A DNA stretch of 64,000 nucleotides from Tetraselmis striata. Lineage: Eukaryota; Chlorophyta; Chlorodendrophyceae; Chlorodendrales; Chlorodendraceae. Of the stretch, positions 1,983 to 64,000 are shown in pieces (within the stretch, counting starts at the first letter, position 1; each line of letters starts with the position of its first letter). The stretch spans positions 62,001-126,000 of the forward strand of contig VCJN01002677.1 of the NCBI GenBank assembly GCA_006384855.1, written 5' to 3'. The position numbers were made by a program, and so were the translations under genes. Below the pieces are notes generated by a model, which did not search any database, was not told the origin of the DNA, and worked only from the letters and a program-made list of their open reading frames with translations.

Positions 1983-3677
1983 GCCTGCCTGATGCGGCTC
2001 ATTGTAATCAGCGCTTAGTGAAACAATAAATAAGAGTTTTGTACATAGAATGATGCAAGTTGTGGCCTGCACGGCAGTGGCTTTGTATCGGCGGGTGCGT
2101 GCAGGTGATGTGCACCTGGTGGTAGGGTTTTCATCACAGCTTGGCTGCGGCACACTGAAAGAATGATGTAAATTGCAACTGAACCCATGAGTCTGCGCAG
2201 AGGCGTACAATCACTGATCATTTCAACTTCATGAACTACAGCTGGTAGAACGGTGTGCTGATATCAAAAGATGCACCATCACTACTTTTCAACTGACCCT
2301 GATGAAAAAGTTCTCAGCAAAGTATGGGACCGTAATAGTACCAGAAAAGGGTTCGCCATGATCGATTACTGTTTGTGGTGCAGCCTGCTGTGGAGAGAGA
2401 TTTATCCCCTCCCCCCCCCCCCCCCACCACCACACGGGCACTTAACTGCATTGTGTGAGACATTGTCTGCTACAAAGTTGTGATTCGGCATGGCGGTACA
2501 CAATCCACCAGATGGAGTTTTGCGTCACTTTCCCAGGGTTCCACCTGTTGCACCACGGCTATTCTTCCCGCCGCCGGATTGACCGCACTCCTGCCGAGCT
2601 GTGAATAACCATCACAACGATCCGGGTGGCGCAATGAGGTGCGGCGCGACCATGCTACGAACCTCGGATAGTATTAACAAAAGATAGCCAGAGGTCGAGC
2701 ATAAGATTTCCCTCCACAGCAGTGCCCCTGCAGTGTTTAGGGTTTTTTTTTTTTTGGTGGAGCGATGCCCACGGCCGCCATGCTGGATCCCCCTTGGCAC
2801 AACATTATTTCCACCAGCATCGACGCAATAAGGGGCACGCCATTGCCGTCCCGCTGGGCTCACCATGGCGCGCTACGAGCATGTGGCCATGCACTACTAT
2901 AGAAAGCTGTGGCCTACGGCAAGGAGGCCACCTGACAAGAGCCCTCTCCCGCCTGCGCGTGCAACGATCACAGCCGCATTTTTATCGATCCATGATTTTG
3001 TCCATAATCCATCGTCATTGACACGCAGGGCTTGGTCCAGGTCGTGAATGACCTATTTTCAATGCCCTGCGTGCATGGTGGATAGTGATCATACCAAGGG
3101 TGATGTGGTATGAGTACGGGGGCAGTGATGTCCCATGCCTATTTATGCACACGAGCGGCGCAATTTGCAGTTTTGAAGCGCACTAGCGCCAGAAGCCCTG
3201 CTTTGCCTAAATGAAAGTGTTTGACGGCAACGGCTACCGCGTGGCAATACGGAATGTATCGCGCTATCGCGGCATCCCCCCCAGCCGTACGACCCTGAGT
3301 AACAAGCATGCACGCGCGCACGGTCTCAGTGTAGCCGCGCATGGGCATGTGAACCAAACTCGCAAAATCCATACTTATGTGGAGAGATGTATATAGTTAG
3401 CAAGTTGCCGCGGCTGCAGCACTGCGCGCGCGCTGGCTAAACATAGTGGAGTAGTATATCAAACGCGCGCGAGGAGCGCCCATCCATCTCAAACAACGCA
3501 AGATCGATGCGCGCGACGCCCTCGTCACGCGCGGCAGCAGCAACTGCTAAATCCTTACTACCCGTACTAGAGCGACTAATCTGACAATCCGTACGTGCGC
3601 GGCAGCGTCTCGACAAGATCATATCGTCGTTCATATTATTATTATTATTGGCAACTTGTAGCAACGATAGGTATAAT
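1983..3677. other. Intergenic stretch
   Basis: No convincing gene. It holds a poly-C tract (about 2408-2427), an imperfect inverted repeat (2386-2407 against 2702-2722, ctgctgtggag...) and a T-run at 2744-2756. Short ORFs are unremarkable. Confidence 0.5.
2003..2007 (+). terminator. TGTAA polyadenylation-type motif
   Basis: TGTAA, the usual chlorophyte poly(A) signal, lies 20 bases after the stop of the repeat gene. Confidence 0.45.
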
Positions 3678-3796
3678 TCAGAGGGCGGTAGGCAAGGAAT
3701 ATTAGCCGAAGAAGTGCGCAGGCATAGCTAAAACACAGAAAAGGGCAGGGGACGTGAGTTCAAAGAGCCACCAAAGAGGGAGGGAGGGTGGGTTTT

Positions 3797-4090
3797 GCGG
3801 GCAGGAGGCCGGCACAAAACTAAGTGGTCGCATCTAGCGGACGAGGATGGTTTTATATGATTCGACGGGTACTGGGTCACCGATATTTTCTCCGAGGGCG
3901 GCACGCAAAGTGCCGTATATCGGCATTTCAGTGCTGAAACACCAAGACTGCCCGGCGGGCGTGCATTGCTCTGACTGAGGCCGCCATGTCAACTTGGATT
4001 GGCGCAGAGGCTGCGGCCTGCGCGCGGGCAGCCGGTGTCGACACCCGCATACCCTAGGGTTAGGGAGGGAAAGGAAAGTCCAAGCACGCA
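3797..4090 (-). repeat. Terminal direct repeat of YR family A (right end)
   Basis: About 290 bp in direct orientation with 6395-6685. Both copies begin gcgggcaggaggcc and share the block ggtgtcgacacccgcatacc near the other end. Confidence 0.8.
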
Positions 4091-6394
4091 GCTGCTTTAA
4101 ACATTTCAGAGGGAGGTGGGCAAGGGAAATTAGCCACCTCGGGCTTCAAGACTGCGGAGGGGGCTGGGCCGCGCCCGACGGAGCGGGGGCGCGAAGGACG
4201 TTGCCGTAATCGGTGGTGGTCGTGGGAAGGGTAGCAAGGTCGTCGAGGATGTCGGTGATGACGTCGCACGGCAGGGGGAGCGCCGTAGCTCGTCCTCGCC
4301 GGTCTTGAGCTGGCGGATTTGAAGCGCGCGCTTCATGTCGATGATGGCTTGATCGGTACCCCGGGCGTCATCCCGACCGGTGTGACACAGGAAGGTGTTG
4401 ATGGCGGAGAGGTAGGGCGGCAGAGAGCCGGCGCCGATGGTGCCACGCTCCGCATCTAGGCGAGGTAGCGGACGCAAGTAGACTCGGTGAAGTTCAAAGA
4501 GGAGATGCCTTCCTCGTAGATGCACAACTCCGTCGGCGCAGAGGCGGATATCGCCTCGTAGCTTGAGTGGGTGCTAGCCGTGAGCGATGTAGTCAGGAGG
4601 TCGAGCACCTTGACGCCCTAGTCGTCCGAGCCGTACAGAGCTTCGATGTTGCCTCGCATGAGCTCGCTCCAAGGGGCGTTTGCGTCGGCGTCTGCGATAC
4701 AGTACGTAAGAGTCTAAGAAGAGTTCGTGGTGGGACGGACGCGCCGATTGAAGAGCGTTGTACGCCGCTGCACGGTTCAACGATGACGCTCGCCGGGTGG
4801 TGCGTGACGACGGGGCCAGGAGCACTACGAAGGGAGTGCGAAGAGGGTATGGTGCCGTAGCCGCTGATCCTGGAACGGGCGTCGTGCGAGTACCTAGCCC
4901 GTCGGACCCCCCGCGAGAGGCCGTTGTGGGAGCGATGGGAAAAAGGGTTAGCGCGGCATGTCGGGGTGGGCGCGCCAGAAAGAGCGGGTCGGCAAGGATT
5001 TGTGATGTAGAAGTACATAATGAAGCTGGAAAGGTTGGCTCGGGCGAGGGTAGGGGGAGAACGAGGACCGGGACATGTGGGTCAGTAGTGAGGGAGTCCC
5101 GTTAATGCCGACGACTCCAGTGCAGCGTTGCTTGCCTGGAAGGCACGCCCTGAGGCGTGTCCTCGAAATGCAGCCTTTTGGGGCCAGCACGGCGAAGCAC
5201 CCCATCATTCGGCCTTGCCGGCCGTCGGGAGCTCGGTCTTCGCCTTGCTCTTACCAGAGTCCTTGGCGACGTCCTTGGCGAAGGTGGTTCGCGACGCCGC
5301 GGTCTCGCGTGCCGGGCACGCGTTATTGAAGCTGTCACGGTTGCCGCCACCGCCGTTCAGATCGCGGTCGTTGCGCCGGGAGCCGCATCAAAAGCGTTGA
5401 CGGGATGGTGTCTTCGCAGCGCTCGCGATGTTCTCGTCGTAGTCGTGGTCCTTGTAGAGCTCCAACATCTCGGTGAACTCGGGCGACCCCTAGTTCTCGG
5501 TGCCATGGCGGAGGTAGCGCTCCGCACGACATCGAGGGCGAAGGTGCCGCCGTTGTGCATATGTGTGTCCCAATGCTTGAGAGGGTAGGCCAAGCGGAAC
5601 CGATGACCGTCGTCAACCGCCTCCATGCTGTGGACGACGGTCTCGATCCGGTTTCCGAAAGCCGGCGTAATCCCGTCGGAGACGCATGCACCGGCAAGCA
5701 GCTTGCGCAACTTGACAGCCAAGTCGGCGATGAAGGCCCCATAGCACGAGGCGTGGTAGTACTCGTCCGCTGCCGGGTGAAGACGAGGGTTACCTAGCAG
5801 GTACTCGAGCACGCGGTTGAGGGCGATGGGGAAAAGCCCCGGGAGATGCAGACTGTCGGGAGGCATCCCGTTCTCCAAACCGGGCAGAGCAGTAGCACGG
5901 GCGGTTTTCCATTCAAGGTAGTGGGGTCCGCTTGAGGGAGCGAAGGTCGCTCGGACGTTTTGGTCCATACCACCAGCGCGGGAGTCGTTCCCGCCCGGAA
6001 TGGCGTCCTCTTTGCCGGCGGCATAGGAGTGTCTTGGGTAGCGAATATCTTGGAGAGCTGCTCCTGGATGAGCTGTCTCATTCTCGTGTCTTCTACCTAG
6101 CTCCCGACGCCCCGCCTTGATGCGCGCTTATTGACCAATGGCCGACGTCTCGACACCCTCGACAGCCGCCGCCTTGCCGGCGTCGACCATGTTGGGGCCG
6201 GTGGATGAGCCGCTGCCTGCTGCTGACATATCGAATAACAATCGTCCCGGAGGGAGCCGCGGGGAGAAGAGAGAGACGAGCCCCGGCTTGAGCTGGTCAT
6301 CTAGTAGCAGCGAGCTAGCGAGGGCGGAAGGTTTTGTACCGTTTTCCGGCTTCTTGAGCACTCTGCACGGTCCGAAACTACGAGTTAGTGTCGT

Positions 6395-6685
6395 GCGGGC
6401 AGGAGGCCATCACACAACTAAGAGTAGAGTGAGAGTGGTCCCATCTCGCGGACGATGATGGTTTAAAAGATTTGACGGGTACTGGGGTGACCGACATTTT
6501 CGCCGAGGGCGGCACTTCGGCATTTCAGTGCTAAAGCACTAAGACTGCCCATCGGGCGTGCATTGCTATGTGGCCGCCACGTCAAATTGGCCACGTCAAA
6601 TTGGCGTGGCACAGAGGCCGCGGGCAGCCGGTGTCGACACCCGCATACCCTGGGGCTAAGGGAGGGAAAGGAAACCCCAAGAACA
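6395..6685 (-). repeat. Terminal direct repeat of YR family A (left end)
   Basis: Partner of 3797-4090 and the outer left end of the element in its own orientation. Confidence 0.8.
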
Positions 6686-7054
6686 CATAATCGAAACATA
6701 ATCCTTAGCGACTTAGCGGCTGGCGGAGTCGCTAATGATATCACTGTGTTATTATCTATGGATTATGGATGAAGTATTCATATAAATAATTGTAGTGTTA
6801 AATCAATGATACTCCTACTATTCGCTGCTATCTATCGTCGCTTCCATAATTGTATAGGAATCCTTACAGCATGGTATAGTGGATAACCTATTAATCCTTG
6901 GTCAAAGATATAATGCAGGAAGGATTGTGAAATTCGTACTCCCTACCCGATGCCAGCCGGTAAGGATGCTCACGTCGCTGCAGCGGGACAACGGCCACAG
7001 CGTTTTTTTTTCCGCCTCCGGGACAGGACTGGCACCAGTGAAACCCTTGCAGCG

Positions 7055-8678: not shown

Positions 8679-11600
8679 ATGCCGGCAGCTGCTGCCAGGG
8701 CGCAGCTGGGAGGGGCGCCAGCAGGCGCCGCACGGCCCTCCCCCCGTGCCGTGCGGCCGCAGATGCTCGCTGCGCGCGTGAGCGGACCCCTCGCAGCGGC
8801 AGCCGCAGGCCTGCAGCAGCGGCACCAGATGCGGGGGCGGTGGGGCCGGCCGGCGCGGCTGCTGGTGGAGGCTCGGCGCGCGGGGCGGCGGCGGGTGCCA
8901 GGCGGGGCGCCGCCGGCGGAGCTGGTGCAGGAGCTGGGGTGCGCGATGCCACCACCCCCTCACCCCCTCCACCCCTGGACTGCTGCCATCAATGCGGCAA
9001 TTGGCGATGGTGCTGTCTCATTAAGCGCACCGCATGCCGCCGCCGAGGGCATGCCTACCTGCAACTGCCACAGCCCCGCCATGAATGAATGCCCCCCCCC
9101 CCCCCCACCCACCCACCCCGGGCACATGGTGCCAAAGGTACCGGAAGGACTTTTTTGCGGAGTACTCCATGGGCCGGCTGCTGGGCACCGGCGCCTTTGG
9201 CTCCGTGTTTCAGGTCACCAGCCGGGCAACCGGCGACCAGTGAGCCCCCCCCCCCCCCACACACACACACACCTCTTCCGCCGCAATGCCGCCCGGCTTC
9301 CATGGCCAACTTCAGCTCAGTGGACATTGCGCTGGGATGCTCGCCACCCTCAGCCGCGGATCTTGCTGCACTCGTCCAGGTACGCCGCCAAGATCCTGGA
9401 CAAGATAATGCTAGGATCCAACCTGGAGCCGGGCTTTGTGGAGCGCATCCGCGGGGAGGTGGACACGCTCAACCTGCTGGCGCGCCCCCCCTCCCTCCCC
9501 CCGGCCCCCGAATCCTCCTAGTCCACCCCCTTGGCTGCCTCCGTCTCCCCTTGGCTCCCCCTGTCCCCCGCACTGGTCCGCCCTGCACTTACCGAGCATC
9601 ACGCCCTGCCCTGTGCTTCAGGCCGGAAGCCTGAACGTGGCCTACCTCTACGACACCTGCGAGACAGAGGTCAGCGTGGTGCTGGTGTGGATCCCCCCCC
9701 CCCCCCCCCCCCCCCACACACACACCCTACAGCCTGCAGCCGCCTGTGAACGGCACGTGCAGGCCGCCGTATTGGGGTAGAGGGGGGCAAGGGGGGGGAA
9801 GGGGGGGCAGGTCGCTCACCCCGGTGGTGTGGTCGGCCTGGCGGCGTCCGGGCAGGTCTTTGAGATGCTGAGCGGCGGCACGCTGTGGGACCGCATCGAG
9901 CGCCTGAGCGGTGAGGGCAAGCTCACCGAGTACGAGATCGCCAAGGTGGCGGTGGAGGTGCTCAAAATGCTGGCGCAGTGCCACGCGCTGGGCATCATCT
10001 ACCGCGACGTCAAGCCGGGTGGGTGCGCAGCGCGGGCCGGCCTCGGGGCTGCCCTCACTAGGGGTCTCGACGCGGTAATAAGAACACAACGAATAATACG
10101 ACCCCGCCCTGCTTGCCAGAGATCAACTGCAGACAAATTCTAGCAGAACTATGGCAGGTGTTCTTATAGGATGCATGCACGCCGGATTAAAGGATTATAG
10201 TAAGGGCTCTGATAAGGAAGTCGGCGTACCCATACGGGTATATGGCTGGCAGAGTACCCGTCTCAGCAGCCGGCGCATGCAGGAGGATCAATCAAATAAA
10301 AAACATCTTGTTAATGGTACTCGGAGCAAGGGCATGATAATATGTCAATGAAGCCAGCGATTCTGTAACGCTGCATGGAAGGGCTGTACAGTCTCATGTT
10401 CAGACCATAACGATCAGAGAGAGAGAGGGGGGGGGAGGTGATGGGGGGAGGGGATGGGGGGGCAGCAACTCTGAATCATACGTGGTCCTTTATAGGAGCA
10501 GTAACCATGGTGCATGAGGTGACTACGGGAAACACTATGAGGGGGGGGGGGGTGTAGAGCGCCGCATATGATTGCGGGTACACCGGAAGAGCATATTGAC
10601 ATTGACTACAATATCATGTACGGACAACATGTGTATCGTGCCATCAGAGGGGCTGATGGATTTGATTGGGCCCCGTGAGTGATGGGCCATGAATAACGCT
10701 CGCCGATGCCTGTGCCCGGTGCCGCCGCAGAGAACTTTCTGTTCAGCTCTGTGGAGCCCGACGCACCGCTGAAGGTACCGTGGCGCGGGGCAGCTGCTCT
10801 TCGCCTGTTGCCCGCCCTCAACCGCCGCCCAGCTGCCTGACACGGCCAGGGCGCGCATGCCATCACGGCGTGACTGCAAGCGCGGCGGCCTCCTGACGCG
10901 GCCGAGTGCCCCGCTGCTCTGCTGTCAGGCCATCGACTTTGGGGCGGCGGTGGCGATCAGCCCCAAGTACCCCGTCGCGGACCGCGCGGGCACGCCCATG
11001 TACATGGTGGGCGGGGATTTGCATGCCCCCCCCCCCCCCCCCCCCTCCCCCCTCCTCTTGCTCTGCTTGCCGCACATACCCGCCAGGCATGCTACGTGGC
11101 TCAGAGCGCCGATGCCCCGCGCTGTGCCCAGGCGCCGGAGGTGGTCAAGGCGGGCGTCAACCTGCGAAACCCGGGGTACAGCGTCAAGGTGCGCGCCTGT
11201 CACGCCCCCTCCCCGCCCCCGCTGACCCACTGGGCGCGCCAATACACTGTTTTGCTGCACGTTCTGATGCAGCCGCCAGGTCCAAGCCTTGATACATCCT
11301 TACAGGTTGATGTCAATGCGGTTGGCATACACTGTGTGACTACTCCACCCGGCAGGTGGACGTGTATAGCGTCGGCGTGCTGATCTACCAGCTGATGACA
11401 GGGGCGGCTGCCGTACGACGGCCCACTGGGTCGCAACATCAACCTGTTGCTGGGCGGCGAGCAGATGCTGCAGGAGCAGGGGATGGACATCCAGGACATG
11501 TACACAGCGATCACACAGGAGGAGCTGGACTTTGAGCTGCCGCCGTGGGATGAGCTGTCGTCAGACGCCCGCGACTTTGTGGTGCGCGCGGCCTGTGCAC

Positions 11601-27621: not shown

Positions 27622-27942
27622 GAGGTAGCCTAGTGGCCCGAACTCGGGCTTATGGGCAGGCGGGTGGAGTCCAAGGATCGTCAACGTCAGCATGCCCTCT
27701 GACCACCTGCACCTCGAAGGCTCCCAAGCGGCATCACGCCAGCGTTTCAGCAGGTTGCTCTCATCCAAACGGCAGAGCAACCCTGTTTTTTTGTAAGTTG
27801 AGTGGTTCTGCCAAAAAAGGTCGCGCAGGCCGGGCTTTAAACGGACAAGTACCGACACTGGCAGGAAGGTTTAGTGAAATCGTGTAGGGAAAACGGAGTC
27901 GCGGGGAGGGGAGGGCGGGGGGGGGGGGGGGGGGGGGGGCCT
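27622..27942. promoter_or_regulatory. Upstream region of the EGF-type gene
   Basis: About 320 bases between the gene's ATG and the YR element, probably holding promoter and 5' leader. No TATA box or known site recognised. It contains a poly-G tract (about 27918-27939). Confidence 0.3.
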
Positions 27943-28125
27943 GTGTGTAACACAGCGAAACTGGAACATGGCAGGCTCAGCTGTTACGGCCGCTTTAGTG
28001 TCTACTCGTGCTGCATCCAAAGGTCGCAACAACGGGTGAATTAGTTAAGCCGCCGTACCACTTAGCAACAAAAGTAGCCAGAAAAGCGGTTAGCAAAGGA
28101 GGAAACCCTATAAACTACTTTAGAC
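27943..28125 (-). repeat. Terminal direct repeat of YR family B (right end)
   Basis: Begins gtgtgtaacac and contains gtaccacttagcaaca and aaaggaggaaac, in the same order as 30874-31054. Confidence 0.85.
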
Positions 28126-30873
28126 GATCATTTCAAGTTGAGCCTGATTTTGCCAGTCATTAGCGAACGAAGAGAGCGGTAGATTGACGAAGAAAGGGTA
28201 GCGCCATGTCACGAAGGGGGCACCGGGAAGGCCACCGCTGCAGAGTCTTGTTGAACTTGGAAGTGGCGAAGGGGCGCGATGTGACCGAAGAAGAACAACG
28301 CGCCTGATGAGGGGAGGACGTTCGGGTTGATGTAGTCCAAAACGACATCGGAGTTAGTGGCCCAGCCACCTTGATGGCGAATGTGGGACAGCAGAACTCC
28401 GGTGGTATTAGCCACTGAGACTGCCCCTTTACGAAGGCTTATGTGCGGTGGGAGCTCCAAGAAGTGCCGACGGGAGGGACAACGCCGAGGAGACAAACGG
28501 CCGTAGAGAGCCAGTCCGACATGGTAGCGGCAGTCCAATATATGGACTGCTTGCTAGGGGTTGACCGCCTAGAAGTTAGTCTAGGCTGAGGCAGCAGGGA
28601 GCAGGGGGGGCACACTGCATGTTGTCGATGAAGTGGTGCAGGAGACGGGCGACGTGGGGGTGCTCCGACACTACAGGTAGGCGTAGCACGTGTAGGTCGT
28701 CGGGGCCGCGCCGGCCGGCACCTCCCTCTCGGTACATCTGCAAGACGATGTCGTAGGAGTCGACATGCTCGACCCGCACTCGGCAGGACACGCCAGTAAG
28801 TCCTCTAGCAAAGAACAGGAAGTTGACAACCGAAGCCTTGAGGGCCCAGAAGTCGTATTGGTACTCGGGGGCGGAGAGCAAACACAATCAACTCGGCCAG
28901 CTCGACGAAAGCGTAAGCGACAATAGCATGCAGCAAAACTCGAAAAGGGGCAGCCTCCATGCGGCGTTGCCTTAGCAGCATACCACGACGGTGAGGTGCA
29001 TGTTGTCCTTAGCGACGGGTCCATGTCGTGCAGCTCGAAGAAACTGTTGTTTGCTGACAAGTGGGGTCGTATCGACTTGGCCCCAATGTGACCCCGCTCA
29101 CCAATCCAAGCGACTCACCGGGCGACAATGGCAGTGGTCACCTCCAACGGGCTGATATTCTCGGAGTCGTGGCAAAACTCCGCAAATTGAGACAGACTCT
29201 TTAGCGTCTGGGCGGTGAGGGAGTTGGAGACTGAGTAGGTCGAGGGCGCCCGCCCGTTGTTCCCACTCGTCCCAGCCGAGTGCTTCATGTAGATGGGACC
29301 GCAGTGAAGCAGCCCATGGGGCGATAGCTTTTGGCTCCTCAATTACAAAAGTACGACGCTTGGCCGACGGAGTAACATTAGGCCGGTTCATTGCAGCGAA
29401 GTAATCGGCCGCGCCGGTTGGGTTGCCGGCGGTTTGCCGGTAATTGTTGGACGGGTTAATAGTCTGGGCACCAGTGTGGGTTTGCGGGGCAAGGTTCAAG
29501 TAAGAGGGCCGCCTCGCGCACCCGTCGCGCTCGTAGCGCATGTCACGCGCGTCACGTACACCGCGAAAGATGGTTGTTGCGAACCAGTTGTAACGCGTAA
29601 TGTTACAACCGACGACATCAGTGATGCGATGGTACGGGAGGCGGATTTTTGAGCCACCATGTGTAGGTGTGCGGGTGGTTGAGCCGCACTCGGCTGTGGC
29701 AGTAGTAAGAAGCGCCGCGCCGAAGAAGGTCTAAATGAAGTCTGTAAGTTGGGGGAGTCCGGTCCGGACACGGGGCGCTCGTCCCGCCATTGGGCTAACA
29801 AGGTTCGTTGTGCGGCGGTCCCCGAAAGGTGACCTCGCAAAGCGTCCGCAGCTCCGGCGAAAGGCGCCCCACGCCTTCACTCATGCTTACCTAATAAACG
29901 GCCACGCCCGCGCCCGCCGCCGCGTCCACGTCCGCGCCCGCGTTCTGCGAGCGCCGCTGCCACCTGAGCAGTCGCGGTATCCTTCGCGCTGCTTGCGACC
30001 GTCGCGTCGAAGACCCGGCGCTCGTACGTAGTCCTTCATCAGGTCCGCAAAAATCGCAAAGCCGAAATGCTCGGCCGCAGGCTGAAAGTGCTGAGTCCGC
30101 AGTATGTCCAGCACACCTTGGTCACCGTGCACACGCTTGATCTGGTTAAGCTTCCTTAGCAAAAGCCAGACGAAAACGAAACGCCTTGTCGATGGCCTCG
30201 GCGTGATTCCGGGCGCGCGCGAGGTAGGGATGAAGTCTTGATTCGCAGCATGGACGTAAGGTAGCAGCTCGTCGAGGGCTAGCACGAAAAGAGCAGCCAT
30301 GTGGGCCCCAAAGCACGTCATCGAAATGTATTCCTCATGGGCCGGCAGACGCCGGTCATCGGCTTGACGTAGTCGTTCGTCAAGTCGGCACGCAGAGGGA
30401 AACCCGGGCACCCGACTGACCGGTCGGTCGTCCTCGTAATCATGCTTTGTCCGTTGCGGTAGCTCTGGCACCGTGAGGCAGTCGTCCTCGTCACTCGATA
30501 ATTTTGCTCCGACAAGGCCGCTCTTGGCTAGCTCATCTAGTAAGTCGGGGCGCACTGCGACTTCCCCGCTGCATGTCGGCTGTCCCGCGACGCGCTGCCT
30601 TGAGCCAGAGCCATGTGCTCCGCCTCCATCAACAACACGTTCAAGTAGAGCCGTCAATTGGGCCAACGACGATGTGAGCTCGAGCAGCAGTGTAGACTGG
30701 GCATGTATGTCTATCTGCAACGATTCGAGCGTCGGCTCGGCGACGGGTTCGTCTCCATCTGCGATGGTGACACACGGACGTACGGATGAGAATTACACAC
30801 ACGGATGGTGAGCCGGGCGTGGTCTTGAAACATACGACCTTGTTCGCAACATGTTTCAAGACAATTATTCGTT

Positions 30874-31054
30874 GTGTGTAACACCGCGAATCTGGAAGAT
30901 GTCATGCTAAGATGTTATGGCTTCTTTTATGTCTACGTGTTGCACCCAAAGGGCGCAAAGACGGGTGAACTAGTATGTAAACCCGTACCACTTAGCAACA
31001 TCAGTAGCCGGTAAAGAGGTTAGGAAAGGAGGAAACACCCTAAACTAGGTTAGA
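30874..31054 (-). repeat. Terminal direct repeat of YR family B (left end)
   Basis: Partner of 27943-28125, same orientation. A third copy lies at 61190-61370. Confidence 0.85.
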
Positions 31055-31679
31055 TAAATACCAAGGGCGGGTGGGACACCTGATACAAGGCTCGCGCGGG
31101 CGGAACGAGGTCGTGCCGGCTCACCGATTATACATTTTTCGATCTTGGATTGTTGGATCTGGGTTCGGTATTTGTACCAAGGTAGTACACTGTGTAGTAG
31201 GTGATCCATGTGCCGTAGCTAGAGGAGCACTGCAACCAGATGACCTACATAGGAGCGCGCATCGGCGCGCTCGCCCGGGGCCACCCAAGGAGGGGGCTTG
31301 GTCTCTAACTCTCTAGGTACCAATATCAGTAGTGGCTAGTTGCTCCTTATAGAGACAAATAGGCCGCCCAGCTATTAACACAAAGCCGGCGCGGGCTAAC
31401 GGGACGGGCACCGCGATCCTGCATCTAACGCGATCCTCCATCCTCCTCAATCCTCCAGCGCGATTCTCCATCCGAATGGCGAAATCCATAACATGAAAAG
31501 CCTTATGCGGTTATGTGTATATCTTTTGAGCCATGCAGTGCGTGATGCGACCTGGCATGCGCTCGTAGAATGGAGCTGACGGGTTGCTAGAATAGGAGCA
31601 CAGAAACGTGCACTACTGTTTGGACGGGTGGGGAACTTATTCGGGTAAACATCACTGTTCTGCATGAGCCGTATATGTA

Positions 31680-58139: not shown

Positions 58140-61139
58140 AGAATGCTCAAGTGACATACTTGCCCATCGCTCTCGTCCGTGTGCTCGAGTACATGCTTGG
58201 TAGCCCTCGTCTTCAGCCGGCAGCGGACGAGTACTACCACGCCGTGTGCTGCGGGGCTTCCATCGCCGGCTCGGCTGGCGAGCTGCGTATGTAAGCTACT
58301 AGCTGCGGCATTTGTCGCCAACGGGCTCACGCCGGCCGTCGGGCAGCGGCTCGGGGCCATCGTCCGCAGCATGGAAGCCATCGACTACGGCCATCGGTTC
58401 CGCTTGTCCTACCTCCGCAAGTACCGGATACGCATATGCACCATGGCGACACCTTCGCTCTCGACGTCATACGGGAGCGCTGCCTCCGCCCCGGTCCTGA
58501 GAACCGGGGTCGCCCGAGTTCGCCGAGCTATTGGAGCTCTTTAAGGACCACGTCTACGACGCCAACATCGCCAGCGCCGCGAAAACCTCCGCCCGTCAAC
58601 GCTTCGGCGGCGCCCTCCGGCGCAACGACCGTGACCGGGACGGCGGCAGCAGCCGTGAGAACTTCAAAACTACGCGCCCGGGGCGCGAGGGGGTGGCGCC
58701 TCGATCAACCTTCGCAAGGGACGTCGCCAAGGATCACTCAAGTAAGGGCAAAGCGAAAGCTTAGGCCCCCACTGTCGACATGTATGGCCAAATTATGGGG
58801 TGCTTCGCCGTGCCGACCCCATGCAGTTGCGTTTCGAGGGCACGTCTCCGGGCGCCTCCAAGTAACTTTGCACTGGAGTCGTCGGCATGAGCGGGAATCC
58901 TCACCGCTGACCCTTCAACGGGAGCCGTCATCCTCCCCTACCCTCGCCGGGGTCAACCCCTCCGGGTCTACTCTGCTGTTCCACATCGCGAGTCACCACT
59001 GACTCCCTCCTTTTGGCGCGCCCCCTCCCCCCCGACCTGCCGCGGTAACCCTCTTTGCCCGTCGGCCGCGCAGCGGCCTCTCACGAACAACCATACGAGC
59101 CCGGTACGCACGTGACGCTGCTACGAGGTCAGCGGCTACAGTACCCTACCAGCATGGCAACAGCTTCGTGCTACACCTCGCTCTATTGTCACCGCCCAGC
59201 GATCACCACCCTCAAACCCGGCAGCGGCGTACGAAGCGTTCCGGCGCGTCCGCCGCTCTACGAAGACACCTACCTACTTCATCGCCGACGCTGAAGCGAA
59301 GGCCCCTTACTTGGAGCGAGCTCATGCGAGGCATCATCAAGGCCCTCTACGGCACATACGACTGGGCCGCCAAGGTGCTCGACCATACGAGCCCGGTACG
59401 CACGTGACGCTACTACGAGGTCAGCGGCTGCAGTACCCTGCCAGCATGGCATCATCTTCGTGCTACACCTCGCTCTATTGTCACCGCCCAGTGATCACCA
59501 TCCTCAAACCCGGCAGCGGCGTACGAAGCCACTTACTTACTTCATCGCCGACGCTGAAGCGAAGGCCCCCTGGAGCGAGCTCATGCGAGGCATCATCAAG
59601 GCCCTCTACGGCACAGACGACTGGGCCGCCAAGGTGCTCGACCTGCTAACTACCTCACTCACGGCCGGCACCTACTCCAACTACAAATAAGGCAAGATTC
59701 GCCTCTTCGCCGAGTTTAGCATCGACTAAGAAGGCATCTCCCCCCTGAACTGTACCGAGTCTACCTGCGTCCGCTACGTCGCGTGAATTGCGGAGCGCGG
59801 CACCATCGGCGCCGGCTCTTTGCAACCCTACCTCTTGTCATCAACACTTTCCTGCGTCACACCGGCCGGGATGACGCCCCGACCACCGGCCCAGCCATCG
59901 GCGACATGAAGCGCGCGGCCGCTTCAAATCCGTCATCTCAAGGCTAGCGAGGAACTGCGGCGCGACCCCCTTCCATGCGACGCCATCGCTGACATCCTCG
60001 ACGACCTTGCTACCCTTGCCTTGACCAATCCCGGCTACGACACTATCCTCCGCGAGGGCGCCGCGGTGTGTTCAACATTTATGTTTTACTCCCGTGGCGA
60101 GTCCAGCGTCTCCTGCCAACTCATCCGCGACATGGCCGTGGACACCCACAACATCACCCTCTTCGTCAACCGCGAGAAGGGAGGATATCGCAAGCGTCGA
60201 GACGGGTTTAAGATCCAAATCCAAATCCATGCCACCGCCGTGCCCGCGTAAACAGCTCTTCTCCGCCACTTCATCGCCTACGGCTACGCGGCGTTTCGGT
60301 CAGGCCCCACCGCCAAGCAACATACATGACCGATGCTGGGCGCTCCCCGGTGACGGGGCTACCCCGCCCCTTTTTACGTGGAACGCCTCCAGCACCCTCG
60401 GCAAATGGCTCAAGCGGGCTGTCGGCCGCATCAATCGAGCCACCCCCCCCCCCCCCCCCCCCCCCGAAGGGTTCGTGTGGACCTCGCACTCCTTTCGTAA
60501 GGGCGCAGCGGCTTGCGCGAACGCAGCAGCGTGCCCCTCGACAAAATCCGCCCCATGGGCGGTTGGGCCCGCAATTATGCAGTAGTCAACAACTACATCG
60601 ACCCGATAACGCTGCCTACCCGCGCCGCCGCGCTTCTGTTCGGTTGGCTCTCCCCGCCTATTGTCCTTCGCAGCCTTCTCGACAGCGCCCCCGCTCCGTC
60701 GGACGCCGCTCCGCCCTCTCATCCGCAGTCATGAAGACCGAGGTGGCTAATCTTCCCTGCCTAGCTCCCTTTGAAATGTTTAGAGTTGTGTTCTTGGGGT
60801 TTTCTTTTTCCTCCCTGCACGTAGGGTATGCGGGTGTCGACACCAGCTGCCCGCGATCTCTGTGATTGACCACATGCAATCCTAGTGCCTCAGCATTGAG
60901 AAGCCGATGTAAGGCACTTTGCGTGCGAAAAACAGCGGTCAACCCCGTACCCATCAAATCTTATAAAACCATAAATGTCCGCTAGACTGGGCCACTCACT
61001 TAGTTTTGTGCTCTACTCATGCCCGCACAACCCGCCCTCCATCCCTCGTTTGTGGCTTTGCCGCAAGTACCCCGCCCTTTCCTGGTAACTAAGCCTGCGC
61101 ACTTTTCGGCAAATCTTCCCTGCCAACCTCCCTTTGAAA
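58140..61139 (+). mobile_element. YR element family A, copy 2 (broken fossil)
   Basis: Plus-strand relative of 3678-6685, without a recognisable left terminal repeat. Parts in order: Gag-like region (about 58150-58760), spacer, tyrosine-recombinase region (about 59570-60735) with a C-terminal box containing HSFRKGAA and GGWARNYAVV, and a right end built as short motif (60748-60776), repeat A (about 60790-61100), short motif again (61109-61139). That arrangement mirrors copy 1. Many breaks; old. Confidence 0.7.
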
Positions 61140-61189
61140 CAATATACATACTGCGGCTGAGCTCGTCCATCCGCCGGTACCGGTACTGA

Positions 61190-61370
61190 TCTAAACTAGT
61201 TTATGGGGTTTCCTCCCTTGACCTAACCGCTTTTCAGCTACAAGTGATGCTCCGTGGTACGGGAACTAGGCACCTGTCGTTGCGCCCTTTTTTGGGTGCA
61301 GCACGAGTAGACATAAAAGCAGGCATAACAGCTGAGCCTGCCATCTTCCAGTTTTCGCTGCGTTCCACGC
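61190..61370 (+). repeat. Terminal repeat of YR family B, copy 2
   Basis: Reverse complement of the repeats at 27943-28125 and 30874-31054; shares tttcctccc and gcccttttttgggtgca. Confidence 0.8.
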
Positions 61371-64000
61371 AGCGATGTTAAAACTGTCTCGTAACCTGTT
61401 GCGAGCAAGGTCACCCCAAGTTGTTCAAGACCACACTCGGCTCACCACCCGTGTGTGATGTTCTCATCCGTACGCCCGTGCGTTACCATGCCAGATGGAG
61501 AAGAACCCGTCGTTGAGCCGACGCTCGAGTCGCTACACGCAGAAGTGAAGGCCCAGTTTACATTATTGCGAGAGCTTGCTACAACGATGGCCCAATTGAC
61601 GGCTCGTGAGCGCGTTGTTGATGGAGAAGGAGCACATGGTTCCGGTTCCGGGCAGCGCATCGCGGGACAGCCGACAGGCCGCGGGGGAGCCGCAGAGCGC
61701 CCCGACTTGCTAGAGCTAGCCTAGAGCGGCCGTGTCGGAGCAAAATCCGTGAGTAATGAGGATGACTACCTCGCGGTGCCAGAACTACTGCAGAGAGCAG
61801 AGTATGGTTACGAGGCCGTTCGACCGGTCAGCCGAGTGCCTGGACTCTTCCCCCTGAGCACCGACCTAACGAACGTATACCTCAAGCAGGATGACCGGCG
61901 TCTGCCGGCCCAGGAGGAGTATCTATGGATGTCGTGTTTCGGCGCCCACATGGCCGCACTTTTCGTGGCTCTTGACGAGCGTTGCGTTACGTCCCTGCTG
62001 CAAATCAGGACTTCACCCCCTACCTCGAGAGAGCTCGGAACCCCGCCGAAGCCATCGACAAGGCGTTTCGCTTTCGTTTGGCCTTCCTACGGAGGCTTAA
62101 TGAGGTCAAGCGTGTGCACGGTGACCAAGGTGTTCTGGACGTGCTGCGAGCTCATCACTTTCAGCCTGCTTCTGAGCATCTGGGTTCCGCGATTTTGGGG
62201 GACCTCATGAGGGACTATCTACGAGCGTCGTGTCTTCTAGGCGATTGTGGCCAGCAGCGCCAAAGCAACCGCCACTGCTCGGGTGGCGGCGGCAGCTGCA
62301 TGTCGCGGACGTGGACGAGGACGTGGCGGTGGACGCGGGCGTGGCCGCGAAGGTGAGCACGAGTGACGGTGTGGGGCGCCTTTCGTCGGAGCTGCTGGAG
62401 CTTTGCGAGGCCACCTTTCGGTGACCGCCGCAAAGCGCACCCTGGCAGCTCAACGGCGGGATGTGCGCCATGTTTCAGGACCTGACCCCCCACCTTACAG
62501 ATTTCATTTAGACCTTCCTCGGTGCGGCGCTTCTTACAGCTACAGCCGAGTGCGGCTCAACCATCCGCACACATGCACATGGCGGCTCAACCAACCGCCT
62601 CCCGTACCATTCCATCACTGCGTCCGTCGGTTGTTACACTGCGTGTCACAACTGGTTCGCAACGACCAAGCTTCGCGCGTAAACGTTACGCGCGTGACAG
62701 GCGCTACGAGCGCGAAGGGCGCGCGGGGCGGCCCTCCTACCTGAACCTTGCCCCGCAAACCCGTACTGGTGCTACTGCAAACCTGTCCAGCAACTACCGG
62801 CCAACCGCCGGGAACCTAACCGCTCCTGCCGAGTACTTTGCAAACAGTAGTCGCACCTCTGGAACTATGTCGGTAAAACGACGCACTTTCGCAATTGACG
62901 AGCCCGAAGCTGTCGCTCCCTGGGCTGCTTCACTGCGATCTCGCCCGCATAATGCTTTCGGCTCAGACGAGCTGGGACAACGGACGCTCGACCTGCTCTC
63001 CAGCTCCCTCACCGCTCAGACACTCATGAGCTACGCCGGCAGACTGTCTCAGTTCGCGGAGTTCTGCCACGACTCCGAGAACATCAGCCCGCTGGAGGCG
63101 ACCACTACTACAGTCGTCCGGTACGTTGCCTGGATTTGTGAGCGAGGGCACATTGGAGCTAAGTCACTGCAACCCTACCTGTCTGCAATCAACACGTTCT
63201 TCAAGCTGCACAACCTCGACCCAATTGCCAAGGACAGCCCACACCTCACTGCGGCAAGGCGTGGGCTGATGCTGCGGCAGCGTCGTCTGGCAGCCGCCCC
63301 TTTGCGAGTTCCTCGGCCTGCTGATGTAGCTTACCGCTTCGTCACAAAGGCCGAGCTGATTGTGTCTGCTCCCACCCCAGAGTACCAACACGACTTTCGA
63401 GCCCTTGTGGCCTCGGTTTTCAACTTCATGTTCTTTGCCAGAGGACTTACTGGCGAGTGCGGGATGTGCATGTCGACGATTACAACATTACCCTGCAGGT
63501 GTACCGCGAGAGAGGCCGCGCTGGCCGACGGGGACCCGACGACCTGCGCGTACTTCTCCTTCCGGTGTCAGAGCACCCCCGAGTTGCACGTCTCCTGCAC
63601 CACTTCATCGACAACGTACAGTCTGTCCCCGTGGTTACTGTTGCCTTGGCTGAAACAAACTTCGGGGCGGTCACCCCAAGCGAGCAGTCCAAACCTTGGA
63701 CCGCCACTACAATGTCGGACTGGTTGTCTACACCCGTCCGTCTTGTCGGTGCTGCCCCTCCCGCCGGCACTTCCTGGACCTCACACAGCCTTCGCAAGGG
63801 AGCAGCGTCTGCCGCCAACGCCATCGGAGTTTCATTGTCCCACATTCGCTACCAAGGCGGTTGGGCCACTAACTCCGACGTCGTTCTGGACTACATCGAC
63901 CCCAACGTTCTTCCTTCACCTGGCGCATGGTTCTTCTTTGAGCACATCGCCCCCCTACGCCACTTCCAAGTCCAATAGGACTCCGCAGCGGTGGCCTTCC
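61190..64000 (+). mobile_element. YR element family B, copy 2 (broken fossil, runs off the window)
   Basis: Left terminal repeat 61190-61370, Gag-like ORF region (about 61486-62350) with an Arg/Gly-rich tail, then the tyrosine-recombinase region (about 62700-63978) with HSLRKGAA and GGWATNSDVVLDYI boxes; the right terminal repeat lies beyond the window. It has fewer breaks than the other three copies and looks like the youngest, but it is not whole. No reverse transcriptase between the two parts. Confidence 0.8.

Follow-up and report, generated by a model that had tools for sequence, protein, structure and literature searches.

The window analysed here, a 64,000-nucleotide stretch of the Tetraselmis striata genome (contig VCJN01002677.1, positions 62,001 to 126,000), contains two copies of a repeated element, family B, that raises the question of how a retroelement-like unit with no reverse transcriptase (RT) can be copied. 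As the initial annotation had noticed, a Gag-like open reading frame with an Arg/Gly-rich tail (ORF1) is followed by a tyrosine recombinase (YR, ORF2), and no RT is seen in either window copy. The features of the copy at 61 kb are as follows.

61187 to 61374, plus strand: terminal repeat A1, 188 bp (BLAST of the repeat against L031)
61488 to 62366, plus strand: Gag-like ORF1 with Arg/Gly-rich tail, ending at the TGA at 62364 to 62366
62364 to 62366, plus strand: TGA (then CGG) between ORF1 and ORF2, candidate readthrough site
62367 to 63978, plus strand: ORF2 (YR), frameshifted; the 62522 frame contains a SAM-like N-terminal domain, and 63457 to 63978 the catalytic part
62371 to 62468 (approximate ends), plus strand: predicted RNA hairpin immediately after the TGA, −60.6 kcal/mol, z −3.2
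C2160:126096 to 126283, outside the window: A2, matching A1

This copy is 3,219 bp long. An element had been correctly placed here, but its start lies at 61187 and its end at C2160:126405, 405 bp past the window. The A1 and A2 repeats are 98.4% identical by the same BLAST comparison. When copies were aligned beyond the second repeat, the sequence past A2 was found to run for more than 100 bp and to end in a further repeat, B, which reads GGCAAAACCAGACTCAACTTGAAA in several family B copies and also stands immediately 5' of A2; L036 is without this tail. The layout is thus A1-ORF1-ORF2-B1-A2-B2, with no room for an RT. Terminal repeats had been proposed earlier and are present, but they are split direct repeats (A1...B1-A2-B2) rather than simple ones, and they are direct, not inverted as those of a DIRS1-like element would be. 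This arrangement, A1-[ORFs]-B1-A2-B2, is that of PAT and Ngaro retroelements (PMC4157794, PMC8547959), and PAT-like elements are known in chlorophytes (PMC4157794, PMC8547959, PMC3266345). The left end of the 61-kb copy is common to 30 loci, whose flanks are mostly different (L024 and L025 have the same flank).

The second, diverged family B copy lies on the opposite strand at 28 kb.

30868 to 31057 (approximate ends), minus strand: A1
29887 to 30792, minus strand: Gag-like ORF1, open frame of about 301 aa, 59.6% aa identity to the ORF1 of L033
28209 to 29840, minus strand: ORF2 (YR), in several frames
28131 to 28154, minus strand: B1, directly abutting A2 (motif search)
27937 to 28130, minus strand: A2, running into poly-G at its end
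27789 to 27812, minus strand: degenerate B2 at the 3' end of the copy (motif search)

Its presence had also been recognised, but it extends from about 31057 to 27789 on the minus strand and not over 27943 to 31054. Both window copies are interrupted by stops and frameshifts; the ORF1 at 61 kb is broken by a premature TAG at 61722 and a frameshift. A longer ORF1 frame (322 aa, stop to stop) is found in L033, and long ORF2 frames are found in many copies.

The identity of ORF2 was examined with Pfam, which gave PF02899 (E 9.7e-6) and PF00589 (E 2.9e-4, below the curated cut-off), and the HxxR and Tyr motifs are present in the family B YR alignment. A genome search with one YR frame returned 6,555 candidates, the best 122 of which were scored: 99 of these frames have at least 500 aa, 58 have 550-558 aa and the longest has 610 aa, so that no family B YR in a longer frame occurs among these 122. 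No methyltransferase domain was found in the family B pieces scanned with Pfam. The PF00589 search of the genome gave seven matches, one of which (C1804:118938-119390) is a phage-integrase-type YR that scores 117.6 bits, far above the other six, and could be viral or bacterial. The repeat DNA of family B had no match when compared with phages.

For ORF1, the pieces scanned gave no convincing Pfam match, and an AlphaFold model was all-helical with a mean pLDDT of 43, too poor for fold comparison. ORF1 does resemble the sequence that precedes the RT in three of this genome's RT gene models (P0285, P0344 and P0326), with 29% identity to P0285 by blastp (E 4.7e-5) and an E-value of 2.8e-5 by hhalign; two of these three models also contain YR pieces. 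ORF1 had no meaningful BLAST match to the region that occupies the Gag position in Cymbomonas P0329 and P0336. The case from these comparisons that ORF1 is a Gag is good but not final. In the comparisons made, which covered Pfam, RT gene models and the Cymbomonas proteins, its matches are to the region before RT and not to a DNA-binding Crypton protein.

Crypton elements have a YR without an RT, and are not known to carry a Gag or split direct repeats. Family B might be a Crypton-type DNA transposon in which ORF1 is an accessory gene and movement involves no RNA, a reading to which the presence of a YR and the lack of any RT found would lend themselves. We consider it very improbable, given the retroelement-type split direct repeats, the homology of ORF1 to the region before RT and the 94.6-100% identity of A1 to A2 across 17 family B copies.

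We then asked whether the two ORFs have been maintained. The YR gave a dN/dS of 0.15 against the diverged subfamily copy L052, with 88 of 131 differences at third positions, while the YR pieces of the 28-kb copy gave 0.09 (77 codons), 0.27 (87 codons) and 0.36 (30 codons) against L041. Within the family, where post-insertion decay weighs more, the YR value was 0.34 (L041 against L050). For ORF1, values of 0.21 (L050) and 0.36 (28-kb window copy against L033) were obtained. In the out-of-frame controls dS was saturated. As judged from these substitution ratios, both family B ORFs show purifying selection, through subfamily splits. Because ORF1 is like pre-RT regions and purifying selection is seen, family B is taken to be a coding lineage.

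The abundance of family B was estimated with a 25-bp repeat-head pattern, which gave 2,964 matches (at most 2 mismatches) in the 224 Mb genome and none for the reversed control, corresponding to roughly 1,500 copies if each element has two heads. Among the 100 places listed, 34 same-strand heads had a neighbour within 12 kb, and 28 of these 34 pairs were 2,876-2,949 bp apart, the other spacings being 968, 2,155, 8,812, 8,827, 10,980 and 11,537 bp. Similarly, 17 of 20 fetched copies had a second repeat, at element position 2,870-2,954 in 16 and 2,318 in one; none was found within 9 kb in the other three. Recurrence of the layout on this scale is far beyond chance.

The window also holds two copies of a second family, A.

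58160 to 60736 (approximate ends), plus strand: family A copy with degenerate ORF1 and YR (tblastn)
3904 to 6700 (approximate ends), minus strand: family A copy with repeats about 2.6 kb apart; ORF1 frame at 5360 to 6127

Compared with family B by tblastn, the 58-kb copy showed 36-55% identity in YR pieces and 31-39% in ORF1 pieces (ORF1 E 1.1e-5), and the copy at 3904 to 6700 showed 31% in ORF1 (E 4e-11) and 43% (67 aa) and 76% (21 aa) in the YR. On these similarities family A is a distant, diverged sister of family B. No RT was recognised in either window copy of family A, and thus the RT-less layout either predates the split between A and B or arose twice. When the genome was searched for family A heads (280 matches, of which the first 100 places were listed), no RT partner for family A was recognised; one candidate, L053 (C996), was set aside as another RT type into which a family A copy is inserted. 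Elsewhere in the window, positions 1101 to 1886 form a tandem repeat with an 81-bp period within a long open frame. The proposal that the family B layout is ancestral and not the product of one deletion is supported by three observations: the roughly 1,500 copies are mostly uniform in length, a diverged sister family carries the same set of genes, and selection is purifying.

How ORF2 might be expressed was considered at the ORF1-ORF2 boundary. When the alignment anchor was chosen so as not to fix the stop context, 17 of 20 family B copies could be aligned (three are without the anchor), and TGA-CGG was found in 15 of these 17, the exceptions being L047 (TGA-CAG) and L036 (CGA-CGG). The frame past the boundary codon continues for 150-453 aa as ORF2 protein in 5 of 15 copies (L035, L036, L039, L042 and L049); in the remaining 10 it meets a stop or a frame slip, frequently at a stretch of C. 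The hairpin predicted just 3' of the TGA has z-scores from −0.8 to −4.2 over 16 sequences (60 shuffles each), with −1.2 in the 28-kb copy, and a 100-nt stretch shifted upstream has a z of 0.1. The combination of TGA-CGG and predicted hairpin (62364 to 62470 in the window, and homologous sites) resembles known stop-codon readthrough signals. An intron joining ORF1 to ORF2 was rejected, as the GT and AG sites located by eye would put ORF2 out of frame; UGA readthrough, which the signals at the boundary make plausible, is therefore the preferred reading.

The initial annotation had offered two explanations for the missing RT, namely a non-autonomous lineage that relies on RT in trans or an undescribed class. 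To find candidate partners, the genome was searched with a DIRS-type RT probe, and several RT types were found. One of them lies within L052, next to a family B copy, in an element of about 3.05 kb with the following parts (L052 coordinates).

1677 to 1855: A1
2121 to 4409: single ORF
4413 to 4442: B1
4440 to 4618: A2
4699 to 4728: B2

In this copy, which was read base by base, A1 and A2 are identical (179/179). Its single ORF of 763 aa matches RVT_1 (E 8.4e-17) and RT_RNaseH (E 9.3e-6), and its tail has a weak methyltransferase-like Dam match (E 0.0069, below the curated cut-off). No YR and no Gag were found in the L052 copy with Pfam and by reading. Split direct repeats are therefore present in both this RT-only element and family B, and a YR was found in family B alone. 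A 26-bp head of the RT-only element (1 mismatch) had 362 genome matches and none for the reversed control, that is, about 180 copies; by head counts family B is about eight times commoner (2 versus 1 mismatches allowed). Among the 100 places listed, 28 of 32 neighbours within 12 kb were 2,683-2,802 bp apart, and the others were at 3,073, 3,437, 9,500 and 9,512 bp. The distance from A1 to the start of the RT is 1,132 bp in 11 of 12 hand-picked plus-strand copies, and the 763-aa frames are open in many copies, with 77 members in the protein cluster P0232. Many metagenomic RTs (P0243-P0350) are 44-65% identical to this RT, mostly 550-700 aa long and without an attached YR; from these similarities, RT-only elements may also exist in other algae. 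Neither the RT-only ORF nor P0123 had relatives among viral contigs.

A comparison of the B1/A2 junctions connected the two elements. The RT-only junction, as read in the one L052 copy, is identical to that of the neighbouring family B copy in L052 at 46 of 53 positions (score 56; best of 500 shuffles 15) and to that of the window family B copy at 44 of 53 (score 47; best shuffle 12). When the whole RT-only element was compared with 20 family B copies by BLAST, 73 of 74 matches fell in the repeat head or the junction, and the remaining one was 25 bp long with an E-value of 0.58. Hence the two elements appear to share only the recombination junction, with no other real match in the 20 copies. 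A shared recombinase would be expected to keep such a site alike even after the remaining sequence had diverged. All junctions examined have weak features in common (GGCAAA...AAATG), so that some junction similarity is general to the lineage; scores between family B and family A junctions were 2 and 14, within those of shuffles.

Reliance on an RT in trans is supported. Since there is also an RT-only element with a closely similar junction, which the initial annotation could not have seen, a two-element system accounts for the data better than either a non-autonomous lineage standing alone or a class of enzyme not yet described. We lean towards regarding family B and the RT-only element as a bipartite YR retrotransposon whose halves are complementary. 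Points that count against this are the roughly eightfold excess of family B heads, the failure to recognise an RT-only partner for family A among the places listed, and the lack of an ORF1 match in Cymbomonas. That they are two individually incomplete, separately inherited elements joined by one recombinase site, neither of which would move alone, as in a multipartite virus, is a narrower proposal that we consider evenly balanced; their mutual dependence is inferred.

A different origin would be that family B and the RT-only element arose by complementary deletions from a single full-length PAT-like element sharing their ends, and that this element, from a locus that is low in copy number or missing from the assembly, drives both now or did so until recently. 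The initial annotation had reasoned that longer relatives with an RT between the ORFs would, if they carried the same terminal repeats, make family B a simple deletion derivative. Longer relatives in which an RT precedes the YR do occur, but the repeat head differs in the only one for which the junction was determined. This type is represented by P0306, an RT-plus-YR gene model with 62% identity to the RT of the RT-only element and 38.5% identity to the family B YR; combining homologues of both in one gene model, it speaks for derivation by deletion. P0306-type YRs occupy 113 genome rows, 59 of them in frames of at least 1,000 aa. In the one copy read (L054), the junction consists of B TGGCAAACAGTGCCTCCTTGGGTAAA and A head TGGTCAGATGTAGTCATCTAGAGG, and its scores against family B and the RT-only element (1-7) are within those of shuffles. 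The P0306-family head has 519 matches, and among the 100 listed, 20 of 42 pairs are 4,560-4,611 bp apart and 10 of 42 are at 1,557-1,566 bp, the remaining spacings ranging from 298 to 11,538 bp and including 1,893-2,984 and two at 3,690 bp. The short elements with P0306 heads, at spacings of 1,557-1,566 bp and in two cases 3,690 bp, are located on C54, C141, C205, C261, C357, C603 and others. With P0306 as a positive control, the spacing test thus reveals complete elements when these are common.

The shorter same-ended forms of the P0306 family (1,557-1,566, 1,893-2,984 and 3,690 bp) are again what deletion would produce. For family B and the RT-only element, by contrast, no element with shared ends and a confirmed longer interior was present among the listed spacings other than the family B pairs at 8,812 and 8,827 bp (C110, C165) and the RT-only pairs at 9,500 and 9,512 bp (C943, C991), and no longer relative with both family B's own ends and an RT was seen among the matches listed. 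Nor does any RT frame exceed 824 aa among the listed matches of the DIRS-type probe, a list from which the P0306-type RTs are absent, or any scored family B YR frame 610 aa; selection on both family B ORFs through subfamily splits further argues against simple derivatives. As the first 100 places and the best-scored candidates were covered, a rare full-length element with the ends of family B and the RT-only element could be missed, and a helper of this kind beyond the listed matches is the main rival to the bipartite reading. Taken together, we regard descent by deletion as rather unlikely.

Several other candidates for an RT-bearing relative were rejected. The RT piece of P0224, a model that joins RVT_1 to a family B YR, reads as Gypsy type and was fused by gene prediction; P0240 and P0175 look like joined gene models too. 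Searching the genome for RVT_1 gave no lead; among the 150 matches that were scored, many sit in frames of roughly 1,540 aa and were taken for Gypsy elements. In P0186, residues 1-430 look like a different type of RT (motif LDAENAFNSF), have no RVT_1 match and are fused to a family B ORF1 and YR; P0186 is probably a nested element.

The genome also contains a complete-looking PAT/Ngaro-like element (L051:1339-7194, on C2647), in which A1 and A2 (201/201) as well as B1 and B2 (68/68) are identical. It carries a Gag-position ORF, an RT-RNase H-Dam ORF (RT frame of 696 aa) and an overlapping downstream ORF, a candidate YR by its position and motifs. Pfam found nothing in the downstream or the Gag-position ORF, the family B YR has no BLAST match to L051, and the L051 junction does not match that of family B beyond shuffles. 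Its identical repeats make L051 a candidate for a recently active family.

Given that other RT families are present, family B could take its RT from them. In a one-way relationship of this sort, family B would parasitise other families for RT and the RT-only element would hitch-hike on the YR and Gag of family B; L051, the 113 rows of P0306-type YR and the many other RTs in the genome all offer possible sources. Against this, the RT-only frame has been kept open in many copies, which is odd for a hitch-hiker that gains nothing from its RT, and neither the P0306 nor the L051 junction matches that of family B beyond shuffles. We therefore think this relationship quite unlikely.

Under the bipartite reading, an ancestral PAT-type element with Gag, RT and YR would have given rise to two, family B keeping Gag and YR and the RT-only element keeping RT-RNase H. 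Family B would encode the Gag-like particle protein ORF1 and, by readthrough of the UGA, the YR. Either RNA would enter particles together with the proteins of both elements, and the RT of the partner would then copy both RNAs in trans into DNA with joined ends. The family B YR would insert either circle through the closely similar B/A junction and would in this way keep the junctions of both elements alike.

Trans-complementation between retrotransposons is usually described as involving a complete helper and a dependent relative. TR-GAG elements and the BARE-2/BARE-1 pair, for example, show partial coding complemented by a relative, and are LTR elements that need an autonomous helper. The closest parallels share some features with the present system and differ in others. 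PAT-like elements (Toc3/Pat1/Kangaroo; DIRS order) and Ngaro have split direct repeats, a YR and a Gag, as family B does, but encode all three of Gag, RT-RNase H and YR in a single element, whereas the present system divides them, with Gag and YR in one element and RT-RNase H in another. RLG_Cereba and RLG_Quinta of Einkorn wheat are likewise two families with shared integration termini, one of which gives Gag; however, full autonomy is reported for Cereba, and Gag with an unknown domain for Quinta (PMC11302176), whereas in the present system both elements are incomplete and a YR serves as the integrating enzyme. The pol-less Athila families are similar in being coding, non-autonomous and under purifying selection, with proposed mobilisation in trans and possible cooperation, but they belong to the LTR elements, lack pol and carry gag, either alone or together with env, and pol-containing families are described (PMC2410132). 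In the open-licence literature, judged by title and the start of the abstract, no such split was found for YR elements.

If the bipartite reading is true, two incomplete halves that share only a recombinase site would represent a division of labour between transposons, as in multipartite viruses, and the origin and persistence of such splits would become testable. Moreover, further helper pairs may be found by comparing the B1/A2 junctions of YR elements.
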